From a virus, in IMG/VR virus record IMGVR_UViG_3300031933_000243, positions 1-36,157 of that record: a DNA stretch of 36,157 bases; one strand, written 5' to 3'. Of the stretch, positions 3,598-32,016 are shown one piece after another. The translations under genes were made by a program, and so were the position numbers. The notes beneath the pieces are model-generated. The model was not told the DNA's origin. It was given only the letters and a program-made list of their open reading frames with translations, and ran no database searches. Each line of letters opens with the position of its first letter. Within the stretch, counting starts at the first letter, position 1.

Positions 3598-5311
3598 CGT
3601 CGCGTACTCCTCTGAAAGTCAGGTTGGCCGAGGCCACCCCTTCCGAATCGGTCAAATGATGGATCTCGATGCTGTCCGACTGGCTGCGCGCCAACACCAA
3701 CCAACAGATACGATAAACGTCCTCGGGGGCAATCTGCACACCCAGCGGTTGATCGATGGAGAGACGCTCCAGGGTTGGGCTCAACTCGCTTGCGGTGGTG
3801 ATCTTTCGGTAAAAGATTTGCCCATTGCGTAACTGGATGCGGATGTGCTGCCGTCCCACGGCGTTGAGTGCAAAGCGGCTGTAACCGATATTCACCACAT
3901 CCAGCGACAGGCCCGTATCCACCACAATGGCTGTCAGAGTCAGATCATCTGCATGGGTAGGTACCCAGACAGGCCGTTGACGACCGTTGAGGGTATACAG
4001 CAAGGACCTGAACCGCGCCCGCTCGGCACGCCCTAGCTCCAGCCAACGCCATTTCATTACGGGCATTGGCTGCCTACCGATATCGGTCACCAGCGGCTTG
4101 GCGGTCCGGCTATCAAGTGTTGTGGTCAGGCGCTCCAGCGTATGGGTCAGATCCTTGGATTCATCCGGGCGCTCTTCCAGCACTGGCCAGCCACGGTATT
4201 GCGGCAGATCCTCAACACTCAACGCGGGCCAGTCGTTGGCTTCCTGAATCAGGAACTCCACTTCAGCCTTCATCGCCGTATCAGTGAGGCGACGAACATC
4301 CGGCTGACTGGTCAGCAATGCCGGCCGGGCGGGATACAAACGAGTACCGGCAGGCCAAGCTTGCTGAGTCTCGCGTTTGAGGTTTAACCCAGCAGCATCC
4401 AGCGTATCGATCTCAACCACTTCATAAGCGTCACCTTCCAGGCTTTGCAGCATGGCCAGTCCGCCCTCGTAAAAGTCGCGATGCTCGGTTTCGCACTCGA
4501 TACGCACCGCACCAATCGGAACGGGTACTGAAGTAATCTGGATATCCGGCCAGATCGGTAGTGCCCAGATACGATTGCCCCAGCCGAACAGCGCCATATC
4601 AAAGTGCTGACGTTGGGTGCCTTCTACCAGAACTGGGGCTGATAGTTGGCGGCGCGGGCTGGTCCGCAAAGCCCGGCGTTGTTCGGCCAGCGTTTCGGAG
4701 GCGAGGATATCGGTCAGCCACTCCAGCTGCTCGTTCACACCATCGCGCCAATTCGGGATAAATGACCAGGCGATAATACGACGCGCCGTCAAATGCAGCC
4801 CCGGCAGTTCGCCATGGCTGAACTGCCACACCAGCCCTATATCCAGTACCGGCGAGCCTTCTGTGGTCACCGCCAATTGATAGACCCGTTCCTGCAGCGG
4901 CTGGAACAATAGAGGCGGCTCGGGCTGATCGCGTAACTCCAGCCCCTCATCCAGCCCTATAATGGCCGTTAGCGTCTTGGGCTCCAGGTGCGCATTCCAT
5001 ACATAGACCGGCTGCGTCTGGGTTGACACGACATTGCCAAGATCCAACACTTGCGGCGCGACGTGAATGCGATAGTAGTAGTCATGCTGAAAGCAACGCA
5101 TGGCCTGGGCCGTGATGGCACGTCCATTGGCTTCTACCGGCCAGTGCTGAACAAGCCACGTCTGCTGTAACGCGATCGTATCGTTGGCGAATGGGCTGGG
5201 CGTAAACTGATTAACCCAGGTGAATTGCGCCAGATCCGTGGTCAGGTGAGTGTTAAACACCTGACCTTCGGCTGGCTGAAGGAGCTGTCCTGCCAGGGCG
5301 ACCATCGTCAT
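3578..5311 (-). CDS. Tail tip/assembly protein, D3112-like, 577 aa
   Basis: A 577-residue late protein between two minor tail proteins and the DUF2163 protein. The N-terminal VFNTHLTTDLAQF region and the central RRALRTSPRR stretch (about residue 213) recall the tail assembly proteins found at this position in D3112/B3-like phages. The start codon overlaps the stop of the previous gene as ATGA. No membrane segment or enzyme motif is visible; it is rich in Trp, Pro and beta-type sequence, which suits a structural tail-tip role. It could instead be a tail-tip scaffold or chaperone. Confidence 0.7.
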   Translation of the reverse strand: MTMVALAGQLLQPAEGQVFNTHLTTDLAQFTWVNQFTPSPFANDTIALQQTWLVQHWPVEANGRAITAQAMRCFQHDYYYRIHVAPQVLDLGNVVSTQTQPVYVWNAHLEPKTLTAIIGLDEGLELRDQPEPPLLFQPLQERVYQLAVTTEGSPVLDIGLVWQFSHGELPGLHLTARRIIAWSFIPNWRDGVNEQLEWLTDILASETLAEQRRALRTSPRRQLSAPVLVEGTQRQHFDMALFGWGNRIWALPIWPDIQITSVPVPIGAVRIECETEHRDFYEGGLAMLQSLEGDAYEVVEIDTLDAAGLNLKRETQQAWPAGTRLYPARPALLTSQPDVRRLTDTAMKAEVEFLIQEANDWPALSVEDLPQYRGWPVLEERPDESKDLTHTLERLTTTLDSRTAKPLVTDIGRQPMPVMKWRWLELGRAERARFRSLLYTLNGRQRPVWVPTHADDLTLTAIVVDTGLSLDVVNIGYSRFALNAVGRQHIRIQLRNGQIFYRKITTASELSPTLERLSIDQPLGVQIAPEDVYRICWLVLARSQSDSIEIHHLTDSEGVASANLTFRGVRDDELQSA

Positions 5312-6225
5312 GGCCCCTCATAACGAATGGCCCAGCCCAGAGTGCCGGTATGATTACCACGCCAGCTGAATCCATCGCGCCCAGTAATATTCTTGCGATA
5401 CCAAGGAAAAATCTTCCAGCGATCACTGCCAATAGTGATGACTTGGCCAGGAGTGTAATGATCCAGCCGGGTGTAACGAGCATGGTCAAGGTCAGCAATT
5501 AGACTGATGCGGTTTTCAAAGCGGGCTTTGTAAGCACGTATCGGTAGTAGTATGGCCTCGCTATTCCAGTCATTCGGGAGAATGTTTACTAGCGGTTTGA
5601 GGGCATCGACACCAATATTAGAACAATTGTAAGTGGTGCCCCACCACCAACCATGAGTATCCAGGTCGCTATATACCAATGACTCAGTTGCATGGCCTGC
5701 TGCAGTACCACCCCCAGACCTCCAAAACAAAGCAGGACAGAAAACATTGGTGCTATAAGATGATCCACCACCAGCAGGCGATATAGAAATTCCGTAGCTA
5801 TATCCAGTTGCAGCTTTGTTACCTGATGCACCCAGCCACATGCCAGATCCTGGCAAATTATCGACGGTAGATTGGCCAAATGCACACCACTGATAGACAT
5901 CCACGTTGTAGTTGATAATGCAGTACACCTCGGCTTCGAATACAAAAAGTTCGTATCCAACCGGCCAGTCCAATGCTGGCAAGGGTGTGCCGGAATATCC
6001 TGTAAACGGCCCCATCTGCACCACATGGGGCGCATCTCCCGTTGTCAGCCCAGTGCGGCCCAGCAGTCGCAGATATTCGCCACTCAACTGCAGCCGCACA
6101 AACATGGTGTCCTTGTGTAACACCTCTTCACCAGCATTCCAGGTCCATCCCTCCGATGTACAGGCCGCAACAAGGGCAGATCGAACGGCGGTCATATCGT
6201 TAGCCGTGCCAGAGTAATAAGCCAT
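5308..6225 (-). CDS. Minor tail protein, variable middle, 305 aa
   Basis: I start this at ATG 6225 because it forms a TGATG junction with the upstream stop; the longer frame to 6273 would overlap 49 bp. The C-terminus (GTLGWAIRYEGP) is, from memory, conserved in D3112-like minor tail proteins. The first 60 residues resemble in layout those of the next gene upstream (a helix ending in SEGWTWN or ANSWQVL, then a strand-rich part), so the two may be distant paralogues. The middle third, about 5580-5880, is visibly richer in A/T and in Gly, Ser, Trp and Cys than its neighbours, suggesting a fast-changing or exchanged surface domain. Function beyond tail tip is unknown. Confidence 0.7.
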   Translation of the reverse strand: MAYYSGTANDMTAVRSALVAACTSEGWTWNAGEEVLHKDTMFVRLQLSGEYLRLLGRTGLTTGDAPHVVQMGPFTGYSGTPLPALDWPVGYELFVFEAEVYCIINYNVDVYQWCAFGQSTVDNLPGSGMWLGASGNKAATGYSYGISISPAGGGSSYSTNVFCPALFWRSGGGTAAGHATESLVYSDLDTHGWWWGTTYNCSNIGVDALKPLVNILPNDWNSEAILLPIRAYKARFENRISLIADLDHARYTRLDHYTPGQVITIGSDRWKIFPWYRKNITGRDGFSWRGNHTGTLGWAIRYEGP

Positions 6226-11092: not shown

Positions 11093-11140
11093 AACATCAC
11101 CTGAGAGATATAGGTGATGGTGGCATTGATCAGGCGGAGG

Positions 11141-11161
11141 GTAATTTGAACGGGGGCAAAA
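11141..11161 (-). promoter_or_regulatory. Late promoter element, copy before tape measure (P-like)
   Basis: Read leftward, the core is TTTGCCCCCGTTCAAATTAC preceded by one more T. It is identical over 21 bp to the copy at 17076 and differs by one base from the copy at 25030. All three stand in otherwise non-coding gaps, in the same orientation, before blocks of late genes. The core contains a small dyad TTTG-N8-CAAA, fitting a dimeric activator. By analogy with the Mu late promoters, the Mor-family protein encoded at 35623 is the likely binder. No good -10 is certain; TATATC lies 28 bp downstream. Confidence 0.7.
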
Positions 11162-16989: not shown

Positions 16990-17075
16990 ATGGCTACTCC
17001 GGCTTAGTTGGTTGAACTCGTTTTATCGGTGTGGCTGTTGCCAATGAGTTCAGCCTATAAGCGCATGCAGACCGT

Positions 17076-17096
17076 GTAATTTGAACGGGGGCAAAA
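17076..17096 (-). promoter_or_regulatory. Late promoter element, copy before protease I (PI-like)
   Basis: This copy is identical over 21 bp to 11141-11161. It is about 85 bp before the protease start. Read leftward, TATAGG follows the element after 16 bases and may be the -10. An 18-bp palindrome TGTTTCAG-CT-CTGAAACA (17110-17127) lies 13 bp upstream. Mu has a C-activated promoter at the same place before its gene I. Confidence 0.75.
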
Positions 17097-24971: not shown

Positions 24972-25029
24972 GTCGGCGTCCTCTGACTGTTGTGGGTACA
25001 GTCAGAGCATGACGCCGATCAGGTAGGGA

Positions 25030-25050
25030 GTAATTTGAACAGGGGCAAAA
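25030..25050 (-). promoter_or_regulatory. Late promoter element, copy before holin (Plys-like)
   Basis: This matches the two downstream copies at 20 of 21 positions (CCCCTG in place of CCCCCG, read leftward). It lies 59 bp before the holin start. With the copies at 17076 and 11141 it marks the start of the three late transcription blocks, just as Mu has C-activated Plys, PI and PP. Confidence 0.75.
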
Positions 25051-25104: not shown

Positions 25105-25287
25105 ATGCAACCCTCAATCTATGAAATACATCACCAAAAAGTTTTTGCAGTTGCCAAGGCTATGGATGCGGTTGCTTTGCATCAGGTGAATAATTTGCTC
25201 GGTCAGCTACTTCAAACGGGAGCCTCATTTTCTGAAGCAAATACAGAATTGCAGCACCTGTTCTTGCAGATTTCGGCAACCGACTAG
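25105..25287 (+). CDS. Small hypothetical protein, 60 aa, rightward
   Basis: A 60-residue helical protein (MQPSIYEIHHQKVFAVAKAM...QISATD) with GGAG seven bases before its ATG. It is isolated between the late promoter and the lysogeny genes, and its last two-thirds overlap the end of a leftward gene tail to tail (25160-25287). I do not recognise it. The helix pattern and ribosome site argue it is real. No good promoter was seen, so its transcription is unclear. Confidence 0.5.
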   Translation: MQPSIYEIHHQKVFAVAKAMDAVALHQVNNLLGQLLQTGASFSEANTELQHLFLQISATD

Positions 25288-25618
25288 GTATTGGCATTAG
25301 AAAATTTCCAGCCAATTCGTTTGCTAGCGCAACCTGGATCGCCTGTTGGTGACGTTCCAAAATCACGCGCCATACCTCTACACTAACGGGCGGCCATTTT
25401 CCTGTAAAAACGAAATGTTCTTGCGCCGTATCGGCCTGGTCTTCAAAACGAGGCTCATAGGGCAAAGCAGCGAAATCACGGAAGTGGTTTTTAAAGTCGT
25501 TGTTCAAAGGCCAGAGGGCCTCGACAACTTCCCAACCTGATAGCTGAACAGGTGGGCTGTTTTGCCAATCAGGGCCGATGACTTCTGCGAAATATTCAAA
25601 CATCAAGACTTTATCCAT
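25160..25618 (-). CDS. Hypothetical protein of the lysogeny region, 152 aa
   Basis: Starts at ATG with GGGAGG nine bases upstream. The N-terminal 100 residues (MDKVLMFEYFAEVIGPDWQNS..., FVFTGKWPPVSVEVWRVILERH) look like a soluble folded protein rich in Trp and Phe. The C-terminal 43 residues lie over the rightward 60-aa gene. It is the last leftward gene after the repressor and so may be made in the lysogen. No family recognised. Candidate lysogenic conversion or exclusion gene by context only. Confidence 0.65.
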   Translation of the reverse strand: MDKVLMFEYFAEVIGPDWQNSPPVQLSGWEVVEALWPLNNDFKNHFRDFAALPYEPRFEDQADTAQEHFVFTGKWPPVSVEVWRVILERHQQAIQVALANELAGNFLMPIPSRLPKSARTGAAILYLLQKMRLPFEVADRANYSPDAKQPHP

Positions 25619-25665
25619 AGCGCTTAACCTCCCTATCTAAAATTCCCGCTCAACCAAAACTTGAT

Positions 25666-26328
25666 TCACTGCCTCGGTGAAACTTCAATAACACCCGACT
25701 TACCCGGCTCAAAAACACAGTTTGCTGTATATGGAATATCCACGCCCATGGCGTTTTGAGCATCAAAGTTCATGGTCACCACCACATTACTGGTCACTGG
25801 CGCAACATAGACTCCCGTGCCGGTAAAGGCATGAATATCCACCTTACTCGGAATCAGCGCATTCGCCTTGATCATCTCTGCACATTCACCAATTGCATCG
25901 GGTGTTGACCAAGCTTTCTCGGCTTGCGTCAAGAGTTTGTCGGCGGACTGCAGCTGAAACTCATCCATTGTCAGACGTTGGCCGTTGGTGCAGTCCACCC
26001 AGAAGTGGAGATGATCAAGACTGCTTTTGGAGGTGCTAAGCTCTGCCATCTCGACCCGATCACATTTCCCGGAATCGATTGCTTTCTCGGCAGCTGCCTG
26101 CCTGAATGCCTGAATCTCTTCGAGCCTGGAACCATACATAGCGACCGTCTTTGGATACCCACTTTGGGTATAAGGGGCGAGTGCACCTGATGACATGCGA
26201 CTGGAATAATCGCCATCCGTAACGGGTGGATACTCTGTTTTCACTGCCCTGACCTTATTGTCATTACCGCCAAACAGGACGTAGAGCACAAAGGCCATAA
26301 AGCCCAATAGCAAAATTACACGAATCAT
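25666..26328 (-). CDS. Membrane-anchored protein of unknown function, 220 aa
   Basis: One N-terminal membrane helix (MIRVILLLGFMAFVLYVLFGG) followed by a ~195-residue soluble part, probably periplasmic. That part contains four cysteines (in GKCDRVE, WVDCTNG, IGECAEM and TANCVFEP) that could form disulfides, consistent with export. GGAGGG precedes the ATG. It lies downstream of the repressor in the same direction, so expression in the lysogen and a role at the cell envelope, such as blocking superinfection, are reasonable guesses. No family recognised. Confidence 0.65.
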   Translation of the reverse strand: MIRVILLLGFMAFVLYVLFGGNDNKVRAVKTEYPPVTDGDYSSRMSSGALAPYTQSGYPKTVAMYGSRLEEIQAFRQAAAEKAIDSGKCDRVEMAELSTSKSSLDHLHFWVDCTNGQRLTMDEFQLQSADKLLTQAEKAWSTPDAIGECAEMIKANALIPSKVDIHAFTGTGVYVAPVTSNVVVTMNFDAQNAMGVDIPYTANCVFEPGKSGVIEVSPRQ

Positions 26329-26337
26329 ATTCCCTCC

Positions 26338-26787
26338 TTAGATCATTTGCAGCGCCAAACCCGCGGTCATTCCCATTATGAACAGCAGCCCGGCATACTC
26401 AGGGAATTCAGCCATCCAAGTGACAACACCACCCTTTGAAACCCTATCTTCGAGCGTAGAGGGGTCGTCTGAAAGGTCTGGCTCAGGCGGTGCTTCCCCA
26501 GCCAACTGGTGCTTCAAGCTGCAGCGTTCTTCCAGCAGACCAAGGATAAAATGCGCCTGGTCTCGGTGCTCGATATGCAGCTGATTTACCCCCTCCACAC
26601 CGATCGCCTGATGTATGAGGCGCCAAGTCTCCCAAGGTGGCTCGCCATACTTTTCGGCAAGCGTTTGGACGCGGCTGTTTAACTCTTTCCGCTCATCCTT
26701 GGTTAAAAGCCGCCCTGGTACATTGTGGATCTGATAAAGATCCCGTGCTGCCACTTGGTTATTGCTTCCCTCAATTTCCAATTCCAT
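26338..26787 (-). CDS. GSNNQVAARD-motif protein with ORF6C-like middle and C-terminal anchor
   Basis: Start chosen at ATG 26787, 13 bp after the repressor stop; the longer frame runs antisense-like into the repressor. The 149 residues show three parts. First is an N-terminal motif (MELEIEGSNNQVAARDLYQI) resembling the repressor's C-terminal NGNTVAGRN. Next is a helical middle (ELNSRVQTLAEKYGEPPWET, then IGVEGVNQLHIEHRDQAHFI) like the ORF6C domain of phage antirepressors. After an acidic linker comes a C-terminal hydrophobic helix (YAGLLFIMGMTAGLALQMI). Co-transcribed with the repressor by position. Membrane tethering plus a shared motif suggests a partner of the repressor or a signal protein; that is inference. 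Confidence 0.65.
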   Translation of the reverse strand: MELEIEGSNNQVAARDLYQIHNVPGRLLTKDERKELNSRVQTLAEKYGEPPWETWRLIHQAIGVEGVNQLHIEHRDQAHFILGLLEERCSLKHQLAGEAPPEPDLSDDPSTLEDRVSKGGVVTWMAEFPEYAGLLFIMGMTAGLALQMI

Positions 26788-26800
26788 GTCATATCCATCC

Positions 26801-27397
26801 TTACTTCTTGATGAAATTGCGCCCCGCGACAGTGTTGCCATTACCGGAAACGCTGAACGACGTATCGCCCCCGTTATCAATGATGCTGCCTTTGTTTGAC
26901 ACTTTGCCACCGCTCTTGGCGAACACGCTGGCCGTTGAACGCAGGGCTTTTTTGCCTTCCGGCGCACTCTTTCGGTAGTTTTCGATCAATTGCTGTTCAT
27001 CTGCCGACAACACATTCAGAGCCTCCATCACCAAGTCAGCATTCCGAAGCTCCAGCCCAGTCAGCAGCATCTGTACACGAGTCTGAGCTTCCGTATCCAA
27101 CCCCGTCAGCTGCGCCTTGTGTGTCGCATCTGCCACCGCATCCAGCCGACGTTCTAATTCCTGCTCACCATCAGAGCGGAACATTGGCTCTTCCCCTGTC
27201 GCCAAGTACTCGCCACGGACATTGAGCTTGCGAATCAACGCTTCGCTCTCTTCGCGCGTCAGGTTCTTAACTTTTCCAGACGTAATGCTTTTAACCCTAT
27301 CGATTGACACCCCAAGCACTTCAGCCAAGCCAGCCTGACGAAGCTTGCACTCTTTCATGATGGCTTTAACAAAAAACCTTATTTCACTTTTTTCCAT
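26801..27397 (-). CDS. Phage repressor (HTH, no peptidase domain)
   Basis: The ~198-residue protein has a N-terminal HTH (KLRQAGLAEVLGVSIDRVKS, about 18-38), a helical middle with an LxxxLNVLSADEQQLIENY stretch, and a C-terminal Gly/Ser/Asn-rich tail ending SVSGNGNTVAGRNFIKK. No S24 peptidase Ser-Lys domain is present, so it should not self-cleave on SOS. It faces the early operon across an operator region. ATG 27397 is preferred because AGGTG is four bases ahead; ATG 27400 is adjacent. It probably keeps the early promoter off and controls itself. Confidence 0.85.
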   Translation of the reverse strand: MEKSEIRFFVKAIMKECKLRQAGLAEVLGVSIDRVKSITSGKVKNLTREESEALIRKLNVRGEYLATGEEPMFRSDGEQELERRLDAVADATHKAQLTGLDTEAQTRVQMLLTGLELRNADLVMEALNVLSADEQQLIENYRKSAPEGKKALRSTASVFAKSGGKVSNKGSIIDNGGDTSFSVSGNGNTVAGRNFIKK

Positions 27398-27399
27398 CA

Positions 27400-27431
27400 T
27401 TCACCTTGATAAGTGAAATATCTTCACTTAT
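27400..27431. promoter_or_regulatory. Operator region: nested inverted repeats
   Basis: The strongest element is ATAAGTGAA (27409-27417) - ATATC - TTCACTTAT (27423-27431), perfect 9-bp arms. An overlapping dyad TTCAC (27400-27404) - N8 - GTGAA (27413-27417) uses the same half-site, and a further TTCACTT is at 27383-27389 inside the repressor gene. Repeated TTCACTT half-sites suggest several repressor dimers, or competition between the repressor and the gp16-like protein. Confidence 0.75.
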
Positions 27432-27434
27432 ATT
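27406..27434 (+). promoter_or_regulatory. Early promoter, rightward
   Basis: TTGATA (27406-27411), a spacer of exactly 17 bases, then TATATT (27429-27434): a good sigma70-type promoter about 60 bp before the first early gene. The operator palindrome fills the spacer and overlaps both boxes, so a bound repressor would shut it. A leftward repressor promoter must also be here but I could not fix its boxes. Confidence 0.75.
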
Positions 27435-29254: not shown

Positions 29255-30256
29255 ATGGATCGCGATAGCACAGTTGGCACACAAGAAGAAAACCACGAAC
29301 TGGAGCTTGATGCTCAGTCCGTGCAGGCAGTGCATGACCTGCAGAACAAGAATGCGGCCTTGCAGAGTGCGTTCAGTGAAGAGCAGCAGCACAAGAACGC
29401 GGTTGTTAACCAGCGTATTGGCCGCCGGCAGATTCTTACCATGTTCGAGAAAATCAGTAACGTTACGAATCTGGTTGATCTGCAAAAAATAAAGGAATCC
29501 AAGGAATACAAAGGGTTACAGATCAGCATCGATGGAGAAACTCGCAATATTACGACTTGGGCCGACTACTGCCGACTGGTTGAGGGGCGTTCTGTCGAAT
29601 CCATCGACCTCGATCTGCAGAACCTCAATGCCTTCGGCGAAGAGTTGTTTGAGTCGATGCGCCAGGTCGGTATCGGCCCCGGGAAGATGCGAACCCTGCG
29701 CAAGCTGCCAGATGAAGATATTGCGCTGATCCAGCAGGCCCGTGAGTGCGATGACAAAGATCAGATCGCCGAACTGGTCGACAGCCTAGTGAGCAAACAC
29801 GCCCGAGAGAAACTGCAACTCGCCCAGGAAAAGGAGCAGCTCACCAAAGAACGTGACGACGCCCATGCAGATAAACAGGCACTCGAAGAGGTGGTCTCTG
29901 ACAAAACCTCCAAAATTCTGGACCTTGAGAAACAGGTCAGCCGCAAACGCCTGGAACGCCTGCCACCGGACGAAGAGAGCCAGCAACTGCGCGAGGAAGC
30001 CAACAACCTGTTATTCGATACCGAAACAACTATTCGCCAGCTGGTAGCACCGCTGGAACAGGTGGTAGCCCACGCCAACGATCACCAGCTGGATGTCGGC
30101 CACTGGCTGCGCGGGCAGTTGGACCAACTGAGTGAAGCCACCGAGTACCTGCGTGAGCAGCTGGGCATGGTGACCTGGCAGCAATCAACTGACCCGGATC
30201 TGGATGGCGAACAGTGGGACGGTCAGGTCATTGATGCGGAGAGGACAGTGCAATGA
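29255..30256 (+). CDS. Coiled-coil early protein preceding the transposase, 333 aa
   Basis: The middle has a compact domain (QRIGRRQILTMFEKISNVTN to NLNAFGEELFESMRQVGIGP, about 53-143). A long Lys/Glu-rich coiled coil follows at about 175-245 (HAREKLQLAQEKEQLTKERD...) and a helical C-terminus. The gene ends in an ATGA overlap with the transposase, so it is co-translated with it. Coiled-coil proteins at this place occur in related Mu-like phages, but I know of no role. It may help transposition or early host takeover. Confidence 0.7.
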   Translation: MDRDSTVGTQEENHELELDAQSVQAVHDLQNKNAALQSAFSEEQQHKNAVVNQRIGRRQILTMFEKISNVTNLVDLQKIKESKEYKGLQISIDGETRNITTWADYCRLVEGRSVESIDLDLQNLNAFGEELFESMRQVGIGPGKMRTLRKLPDEDIALIQQARECDDKDQIAELVDSLVSKHAREKLQLAQEKEQLTKERDDAHADKQALEEVVSDKTSKILDLEKQVSRKRLERLPPDEESQQLREEANNLLFDTETTIRQLVAPLEQVVAHANDHQLDVGHWLRGQLDQLSEATEYLREQLGMVTWQQSTDPDLDGEQWDGQVIDAERTVQ

Positions 30257-32016
30257 ACACCTTGGCACAGGGGCAGTTCCTGCTCGACGTGGCACAACGT
30301 GCCGAACAGGCCGGTCATGGCGGCAAGACGGAGATCTACGCCTCTGCTGCCGAGCAACTGGGTGTGAGTATCCACACGTTGTTACGCAAGCTGTCGGAGA
30401 TCCGGCCCAGTACCCGTAAACGCCGTGAAGACGCGGGACAGAGCGCCTTATCACGTGATGATGCCAAGGCGATCTCGGCCTACATGATGGACAGCCGCCG
30501 CAAGAATGGTAAGCGCCTGTCCTCCCTGGAGGATGCGGTGGAGGTACTGCGGGCCAACGGTGAGATCGAGGCTGGCCGGGTGGATGATGAGACCGGCGAG
30601 TTCTGCCCGCTATCGCTGTCGGCCATCAACCGTGCCCTGTACCAGTACAACCTGCACCCGGAGCAGCTGCGCCGCCCCAGCCCTAAACAAGTGCTGGCCA
30701 GCAAGCATCCGAACCATGTATGGCAAATCGACCCGTCGCTGTGCGTGCTCTATTACCTGCCCACCAAGGCCGGTGAAGCTCTGCAGGTGATGGACGAAGC
30801 CAAGTTCTACAAGAACAAACCGGGCAATATCCGCCGTATCGAGAAGGAGCGGGTCTGGCGTTACGTCATCACCGACCACACCAGTGGCGTGATCTTTGTG
30901 CACTACGTTCTGGGCGCCGAGAGCGGCGTCAACCTGCTGACCGCCTTTATCCGCGCCGCGATCAAGCGCGATGGTGACCCGTTCCACGGCATCCCCCAGG
31001 TGGTGATGGTCGACCCCGGCAGCGCCAACACCGGTGCGGTGTTTCGCAACGCCTGCCGGGCGCTGGGTATGCACCTGCAGGTGAACGTACCGGGACAGCC
31101 CTGGGCCAAGGGCCAGGTGGAAAAGGCCAACGATATCGTCGAGCGCTCGTTCGAGCATCGGCTGAAGTTTCTGGCGCATCCGCCCACCAGCCTGGATGAG
31201 TTGAATGCCGCCGTCGAGCAGTGGATGACCTGGTTTAACGGTACCAAAACGCACAGCCGTACCGGCAAAACCCGCTATGCCGTGTGGCAGACGATCCGAG
31301 CCGACCAGCTGATCATTGCACCTGATGCCCAGGTGATTCGCGCCGTAGCCATGAGTAAGCCAGAGGTGCGTAGGGTGTCGGTACAGCTGGAGGTGAGTTT
31401 CCGTGGCCGAGCGTATTCCGTCGCCGGTATTCCCGGCGTTCAGGTGGGCATGCAGCTGGAGGTAATGCGTAACCCCTGGCACGAGGATGTGGCTGGCGTG
31501 CTCTACAAAAACGAGGACGGCCGCGAGATTGTGCAGCTGGTACAGGCACAGGAACTCAACGAATACGGCTTCCCGATGGATGCACCCGTGATCGGCGAGA
31601 CCTTCCGCAGCCATGCCGATACCGCGCTGGAAACCAATCGCAAAGAGGTAGAACGCTTCTCCATGGGCGCCGGGAGCGATGCCGAGGCCGCCGAGAAGCG
31701 CAAGCGTGGCGCTACACCTTTTGCTGGTCAGCTGGACCCGATGAAACCGATTACTGATACCCAGCTGCCCGATTACCTGCCCAAGCGTGGTACTGAGCTT
31801 GATGTGCAGGCCCCAACCGTTCAGGCGCTGCGCCTGAACCATGTCGAAGCCGCCCGCCGCCTGCGCGATCGCCTGGGGGATGAATGGACGGGCGAACACT
31901 ACAACTGGCTGGTTCAGCGTTATCCAGAGGGTATCACTGAGGATGACCTGCCCGGCATTGAAGCCGCCATGCGCCGATCCAAACCGACAGCGCTCAGAGC
32001 GGTTGGAGGTGAATGA
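30253..32016 (+). CDS. DDE transposase (MuA-like)
   Basis: The 587-residue transposase carries out strand cleavage and transfer for integration and replicative transposition. The N-terminal ~60 residues contain an HTH (YASAAEQLGVSIHTLLRKL). The RNase H-like core has Asp160 (NHVWQIDPSLCVLYY), Asp254 (PQVVMVDPGSANTG) and Glu290 (WAKGQVEKANDIVERSFE), a D-D-35-E spacing. C-terminal part (about 350-425) is the beta-barrel domain of Mu-type transposases (VRRVSVQLEVSFRGRAYSVA), then a tail that probably contacts the ATPase. The core is shorter in D-to-E spacing than MuA and more like Tn552/BcepMu-type enzymes. Confidence 0.93.
   Translation: MNTLAQGQFLLDVAQRAEQAGHGGKTEIYASAAEQLGVSIHTLLRKLSEIRPSTRKRREDAGQSALSRDDAKAISAYMMDSRRKNGKRLSSLEDAVEVLRANGEIEAGRVDDETGEFCPLSLSAINRALYQYNLHPEQLRRPSPKQVLASKHPNHVWQIDPSLCVLYYLPTKAGEALQVMDEAKFYKNKPGNIRRIEKERVWRYVITDHTSGVIFVHYVLGAESGVNLLTAFIRAAIKRDGDPFHGIPQVVMVDPGSANTGAVFRNACRALGMHLQVNVPGQPWAKGQVEKANDIVERSFEHRLKFLAHPPTSLDELNAAVEQWMTWFNGTKTHSRTGKTRYAVWQTIRADQLIIAPDAQVIRAVAMSKPEVRRVSVQLEVSFRGRAYSVAGIPGVQVGMQLEVMRNPWHEDVAGVLYKNEDGREIVQLVQAQELNEYGFPMDAPVIGETFRSHADTALETNRKEVERFSMGAGSDAEAAEKRKRGATPFAGQLDPMKPITDTQLPDYLPKRGTELDVQAPTVQALRLNHVEAARRLRDRLGDEWTGEHYNWLVQRYPEGITEDDLPGIEAAMRRSKPTALRAVGGE

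Follow-up and report, generated by a model that had tools for sequence, protein, structure and literature searches.

In amyloid signaling pairs (BASS; RHIM and HET-s are the eukaryotic counterparts), a short C-terminal motif rich in G, N, and Q matches the N-terminus of the neighboring protein, and several motif classes are interchangeable; neighboring Bell C-termini and NLR N-termini carry similar amyloid-like paired motifs (PMC8086366). The viral operon analyzed here shows the same arrangement between a repressor and the product of the next gene (ORF2), and likewise occurs in several motif classes, some of which are RHIM-like (VQIG). It is unlike these pairs in that a phage repressor is matched with a predicted membrane-anchored protein of Ant/Flk type and in that NACHT/NLR and Bell are lacking. 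An open-access library, which is incomplete, returned no publication joining amyloid signaling or functional amyloid with phage repressors.

Three further systems bear on the locus. Part of the ORF2 body appears related to residues 127-186 of P22 Ant, and in both cases the presumed target is the prophage repressor; unlike Ant, ORF2 lacks the P22_AR_N/BRO-N domain, has a predicted membrane anchor, and is co-oriented with the repressor, whereas the ant gene of P22 is located in immI and is separately controlled (Arc/Mnt). Flk (RflH), the flagellar secretion checkpoint of Enterobacterales, is a membrane-anchored protein that inhibits the flagellar secretion switch and resembles ORF2 in its helical domain (tandem in Flk) and C-terminal membrane anchor (PMC13344023), but it has no repressor-matching head motif and acts on flagellar secretion. 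The rexAB genes behind cI of lambda are exclusion genes in a repressor operon, and one relative of our phage (L014) has a gene for a protein of about 300 aa and a RexB-like gene in the corresponding slot, but ORF3 and ORF4 in the operon studied here are neither RexA nor RexB.

Layout and boundaries of the operon

The window (the whole stretch of DNA that was analyzed) is a 36,157-base IMG/VR virus record of a transposable phage. The element that carries the operon is a B3/BcepMu-like transposable prophage, with a DDE transposase, a downstream ATPase, and Ner-like and CII-like genes, all divergent from the repressor and late genes. At least 80% of the transposase (30253-32016) is covered by each of 58 named-phage records, mostly of the Pseudomonas B3 group, and the gene order is that of B3: early genes divergent from the repressor, then holin, endolysin, and late genes. 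Among the relatives, L014/L048 and L015/L049 are prophages carried by Marinobacterium stanieri and M. litorale. When the operon DNA was compared with named phages, the single match was one of 179 bp to Komp_PAO1_1.

The original prediction placed a four-gene operon at the repressor, upstream of a late promoter. Both points were confirmed: the repressor, ORF2, ORF3, and ORF4 are four ORFs on the minus strand with short gaps (13 nt between repressor and ORF2, 9 nt between ORF2 and ORF3, and 47 nt between ORF3 and ORF4), and a conserved element at 25017-25050 marks the downstream boundary. The features are as follows.

27380..27431, no strand assigned: repressor operator region, with inverted repeats TATTTCACTT / AAGTGAAATA and ATAAGTGAA / TTCACTTAT
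26801..27400, minus: lysogeny repressor, 199 aa, N-terminal HTH (HTH_3, 5e-5; PHROG transcriptional regulators)
26813..26860, minus: C-terminal tail motif of the repressor, SFSVSGNGNTVAGRNF, aa 181-196
26338..26787, minus: ORF2, 149 aa, with a tail-matching head, an antirepressor/Flk-type helical domain, and a C-terminal TM segment
26734..26781, minus: N-terminal head motif of ORF2, LEIEGSNNQVAARDLY, aa 3-18 (low pLDDT when modeled as a monomer)
26509..26721, minus: three-helix body of ORF2, aa 23-93
26344..26403, minus: C-terminal transmembrane helix of ORF2, aa 129-148 (from the relatives' hydropathy and a helix in the model)
25666..26328, minus: ORF3, 220 aa, with a TM anchor at the N-terminus and four conserved Cys in its C-terminal domain (phrog_29597, 1.7e-21)
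25160..25618, minus: ORF4, 152 aa, soluble protein (single relative found, 79%, L006/L015)
25017-25050, minus: late-promoter-like element before the holin, conserved, downstream boundary of the lysogeny operon

The inverted repeats of the operator region are perfect and overlap a promoter-like site belonging to the plus-strand early operon (27406-27434). The sequence TTCACTT/AAGTGAA occurs three times in the whole 36 kb window, each time within 27383-27431. On the other side, the late element, 34 nt long with the core TTTTGCCCCyGTTCAAATTAC, precedes the holin by about 80 nt, both in the window and in five relatives (L012-L015, L038). Two further copies are found in the window (17063-17096 and 11128-11161, minus strand), some 35-75 nt upstream of other late genes; the element thus stands just upstream of the holin, protease/scaffold, and tape measure genes. 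We regard it as a candidate binding site of a late activator. The four genes are thus flanked by operator-like repeats of lysogeny control on one side and the late-promoter element on the other, so the operon boundaries are credible and expression of the predicted operon in the lysogen is plausible.

Matched motifs at the repressor tail and the ORF2 head

The repressor ends with ...DTSFSVSGNGNTVAGRNFIKK and ORF2 starts with MELEIEGSNNQVAARDLYQIHN, so that a motif at the very end of one protein recurs at the start of the following one. We gathered prophage loci through the conserved neighboring holin, found a repressor-like match in 117 of them, and dropped three ParB-like proteins from these. 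A permutation test was then run on 71 non-redundant pairs of repressor and next gene, selected by a 60% identity filter (which reduces relatedness among loci and does not remove it) and not by motif; the next gene was chosen with a simple rule, and some of the partners are farther downstream (L077, L110). The score was the local similarity of the 40 C-terminal residues of the repressor to the 45 N-terminal residues of the next protein. Cognate pairs had a mean of 30.9 against 20.2 for permuted pairs (sd = 0.89, z = 11.9), and 0 of 20,000 permutations reached a value as high. Control segments of the repressor gave z = 1.0, -0.1, and 2.0, and partner residues 46-90 gave z = 2.5. For the last 45 residues of the partner, z was 6.0, a value attributed to very short next ORFs, still included, in which the head and tail windows overlap.

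The alignment of 31 tails and heads defined a class A motif, VxGxxNRVAGRDY. Class B resembles QxFNG..GQVAGxxIIN (L088, L096, L121), and other classes are of the type GDNNVQIAG or GNNNTQVSG (L025, L030). The classes were recognized by eye after the first loci and their labels were not blind, whereas the permutation test was. True pairs matched better than permuted pairs even within classes (class A: z = 3.5; class B: z = 2.6). Among the 8,505 unique ORFs of the loci, the strict class A motif was found at 33 places, 20 of them at C-termini and 13 in partner heads (one of which had been tabulated as "other" owing to an upstream start), and nowhere else. Class A tails and heads, by the strict pattern, occur together (19/21 vs. 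1/48, Fisher's exact test: P = 9e-14). A co-occurrence test with a loose regular expression (P = 0.001) admitted many false heads and was replaced by this strict version. Codons for identical residues often differ between tail and head (DNA identity 0.48-0.79), so the two are not fresh duplications.

Tail and head of each matched pair belong to the same class, and the class changes in both together. The comparison of L130 with L050, L129, and L134 amounts, for these predicted proteins, to a natural experiment on such a concerted switch: the partner bodies are 71% identical, and the head and the repressor tail of L130 are both of class B, not A. The pairing is also found in classical B3, where ORF18 ends with GGISVTGDGNRTAGRDFHERKE and ORF20 starts with VNIEVTGSNNIVAGRDFIENH, and alike in Ps59. 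It recurs in the P2-like prophages L249 and L250, which were recognized by a downstream tyrosine integrase, and in the Peduoviridae phage 520873, with a tail GGNNRIAGRDYNETKGR and a frameshifted partner head NGSNNRVAGRDFHEK; the partner gene of this phage (L254, 2263-2900) is unannotated and broken by frameshifts, and the repressor keeps its tail motif. Some loci have neither motif.

Several observations touch on the range of the motif. RHIM-like cores occupy the same gene positions in L040 (3871-5076, GAVQIG/GAVQVG), L076 (3024-3900, GIQIGYMAG/LQIGEMNG), and L117 (3613-4340, GVQVG/SVLVG). In L093, L105, L119, and L136 the next-gene protein has an internal GGNN-like segment (QERQITISVGGNNHGSIH), and the repressor C-terminus has no match to it. 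In L006 (2733-2858) and L012 (3919-4044) the partner is a protein of 41 aa, little more than a head motif (MDIRVEGDNNFVVGGDYHCH...), which suggests that the head may be useful by itself or else that the gene is in decay. A Pfam search, in which there were no BASS profiles as such, returned no RHIM, HET-s, or BASS match for ten peptides from tails and heads, and a class A motif profile searched against PDB sequences returned nothing convincing.

The ORF2 body and the possible roles of the pair

In an AlphaFold model built from 14 sequences, the head of ORF2 is of low confidence (pLDDT blocks of 43 and 53), the three helices that follow at 30-97 are confident, and a further helix spans 129-148 at the C-terminus. 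Hydropathy gave at least one TM segment, mostly C-terminal, in 26 of 30 matched partners, and hydropathy and model together show a predicted membrane anchor. The earlier description of ORF2 as a motif/ORF6C-like/membrane-tail protein fits this combination of head motif, helical domain, and C-terminal helix. No Pfam domain was found in ORF2, and no confident NACHT/NB-ARC match in the repressor or ORF2.

All 14 members of the ORF2 body family matched phrog_5825, and a few matched the anti-repressor families phrog_245 and phrog_2127 (phrog_245: 3/14, best 2e-4). The family aligned with P22 Ant by hhalign over 60 columns only, Ant residues 127-186 (E = 5e-5, probability 67%), and a Pfam-type search gave no match of ORF2 to P22_AR_N or BRO-N. 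With an ORF2-body profile we also searched 296 genomes from the order that includes G005 (the Dickeya genome of L088). The search returned proteins of 330-430 aa with two copies of the ORF2-type domain and a C-terminal anchor, which we take to be Flk from their sequence and a weak NCBIfam hint, as well as ORF2-domain proteins with antirepressor-type N-termini (L243, L246). These matches point weakly to a distant relationship of the ORF2 body with both P22 Ant and flagellar Flk. The Flk-like genes (L226-L242) have the domain and the C-terminal anchor in common with the prophage repressor partners (26338-26787 in the window), and one may therefore derive from the other. In fold searches, likeness of the ORF2 body to the C-terminal three-helix arrangement of SSAP/Red-beta proteins (8qe9: Z = 8.3, rmsd = 1.8, 61 aligned; second match 6m9k: Z = 6.4) was not taken as kinship, the arrangement being too common.

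We tentatively propose, with somewhat less than even confidence, that the repressor and ORF2 form a lysogeny-control pair in which ORF2 is a membrane-tethered, antirepressor-like switch, and that ORF3 and ORF4 are passengers. The repressor tail and the ORF2 head, with the same Gly/Asn-rich motif, would co-assemble in a homotypic beta-arch or amyloid-like form, and ORF2, with its C-terminal helix as an anchor in the inner membrane, would capture the repressor there. A membrane event (phage entry or loss of energization) would trigger the assembly and turn the repressor down, giving induction without repressor cleavage. ORF3 and ORF4 would be exchangeable cargo expressed in the lysogen, probably excluding other phages.

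We infer that tail and head meet because neighboring proteins that otherwise differ keep a matching motif and swap it jointly. The C-terminal anchor and the antirepressor/Flk-type helical body are the grounds for placing the putative capture at the membrane. Negative control of the repressor is favored because the ORF2 body seems to be kin to Ant and because domain-family searches (PHROG included) found no LexA-type peptidase or cleavage domain in the repressor. An amyloid-like chemistry is suggested by the likeness to amyloid signaling pairs and by the RHIM-like classes found here. A trigger must be assumed, since repressor and partner lie in one apparent operon and an unregulated antirepressor would destabilize lysogeny. 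Other points also count against this proposal. The body is small, its apparent link to Ant is weak and partial, and Flk, seemingly the stronger relative, is not an antirepressor; L093, L105, and L136 have a partner-like head and no matching tail; and the 41-aa partners would need any antirepressor activity to reside in the motif alone.

If the contact is real, it would be a new form of repressor control that relies on a homotypic motif and a partner in the membrane, and that is shared by two or more unrelated phage groups, classical B3 among them. It would make testable how repressors with no recognizable cleavage domain are inactivated, whether prion-like assembly takes part in lysogeny decisions, and how amyloid signaling pairs and Flk-type proteins originated. 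The motif classes provide a ready specificity test by swapping tails and heads and comparing matched with mismatched combinations. We consider it unlikely that the pair goes as far as a prion-like switch, i.e., that a widespread class of repressors has a self-templating amyloid-like tail caught by a membrane partner, with nucleated co-assembly ending lysogeny or sensing superinfection.

ORF2 could also be a lysogeny helper that tethers the repressor, and through it the prophage, at the membrane, aids oligomerization, or shields the tail from proteolysis. The C-terminus of the Mu repressor governs its degradation by ClpXP, and the C-terminal position of the tail, together with the co-orientation of ORF2 with the repressor, would suit such a role. 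Yet in JBD67, Tom33, and UMP151, which are close relatives of B3, the repressor lacks the tail and the partner is lacking too, so a helper is not generally needed, and part of the ORF2 body resembles an antirepressor; we find this role improbable.

An effector that damages the inner membrane is quite unlikely in our view, though the TM segments of nearly all partners (26/30) would fit it. A seeded or released head would then kill or exclude, with the repressor tail as inhibitor or trigger, in abortive infection or addiction. The second protein of known amyloid signaling pairs is often a membrane-active effector, and the slot behind the repressor of L014 holds a RexB-like gene. Against this, the ORF2 body is apparently kin to Ant and Flk and unlike the pore-forming domains that are known, the head stands at the N-terminus and the anchor at the C-terminus, and ORF2 has no PADLOC match.

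That the operon as a whole is just another moron/exclusion cassette, with ORF2 as cargo and the motif likeness a functionless relic of recombination between adjacent genes, is very improbable: the motif is short and genes are freely exchanged at the locus, but the motif occurs nowhere except in repressor tails and partner heads, matching is kept within pairs across classes, the DNA of the two copies differs, and the pair recurs in two unrelated phage groups (B3-like and P2-like). ORF2, which shares the terminal motif of the repressor and is conserved across these two groups, looks like a dedicated repressor partner and not like ordinary cargo. Here the lysogeny-operon reading of the original prediction has to be amended: its operon layout stands, as does the gene exchange that it named as a check, and its treatment of ORF2 as one more cargo gene does not.

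ORF3, ORF4, and the cargo slot

Gene exchange at this locus across related prophages, which had been suggested as a check, was found on comparison: ORF3, ORF4, and the contents of the slot swap among L012, L006, and L014. The ORF3 DNA of L012 is 98% identical, the repressor there is only 81% identical, and its ORF2 is a different protein of 41 aa; L006 keeps ORF4 and has a different ORF3. The closest relative, L014, has in its slot (4503-5879) a DUF6731-like protein of 306 aa (E = 2.2e-5, below the Pfam cut-off) and a RexB-like membrane protein (PADLOC RexB: 5.5e-4; BLASTP to lambda RexB: 0.002). The former was considered as a RexA and set aside, having no detectable RexA similarity. From these comparisons, ORF3 and ORF4 appear to be exchangeable cargo behind the repressor-ORF2 pair.

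ORF3 had been described as a membrane-anchored cysteine protein, in agreement with its N-terminal TM segment and the four invariant Cys in its C-terminal domain, which is probably periplasmic. A fold search with this domain returned cystatin-like folds, the best of them weak (Z = 8.1, rmsd = 2.8, 77 aligned); a hint of DarT (NCBIfam, E = 0.18) was noise. Elsewhere the domain is fused to other anchors, and it is found behind regulators in L213 and L215. In gp37 of Pseudomonas phage VW-6S (L008, 4533-5456), an ORF3-type domain is combined with a lipoprotein signal and an SH3-like stretch, directly before the tape measure gene, and two contigs similar to this locus (L212, L216) have the same fusion. 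The exclusion moron gp15 of HK97 reportedly lies before the tape measure gene as well.

None of the four proteins matched the PADLOC defense models, and ORF3 and ORF4 had no sequence match to a described exclusion or defense family in Pfam-type, PADLOC, and NCBIfam searches. An exclusion role of this putative cargo is no more than a fair guess from the slot and gene context, namely the tape-measure neighbor of the VW-6S fusion, the gene exchange, and the RexB-like gene of L014. For ORF4, searches of Pfam, PHROG, NCBIfam, PADLOC, phages, plasmids, and eight genomes of the genus of M. stanieri returned only the one relative at 79%. Antisense to the end of ORF4 lies a plus-strand ORF of 60 aa (25105-25287), which has no codon-position signal either way and no phage relatives; a similar ORF occurs at the same place in L006.
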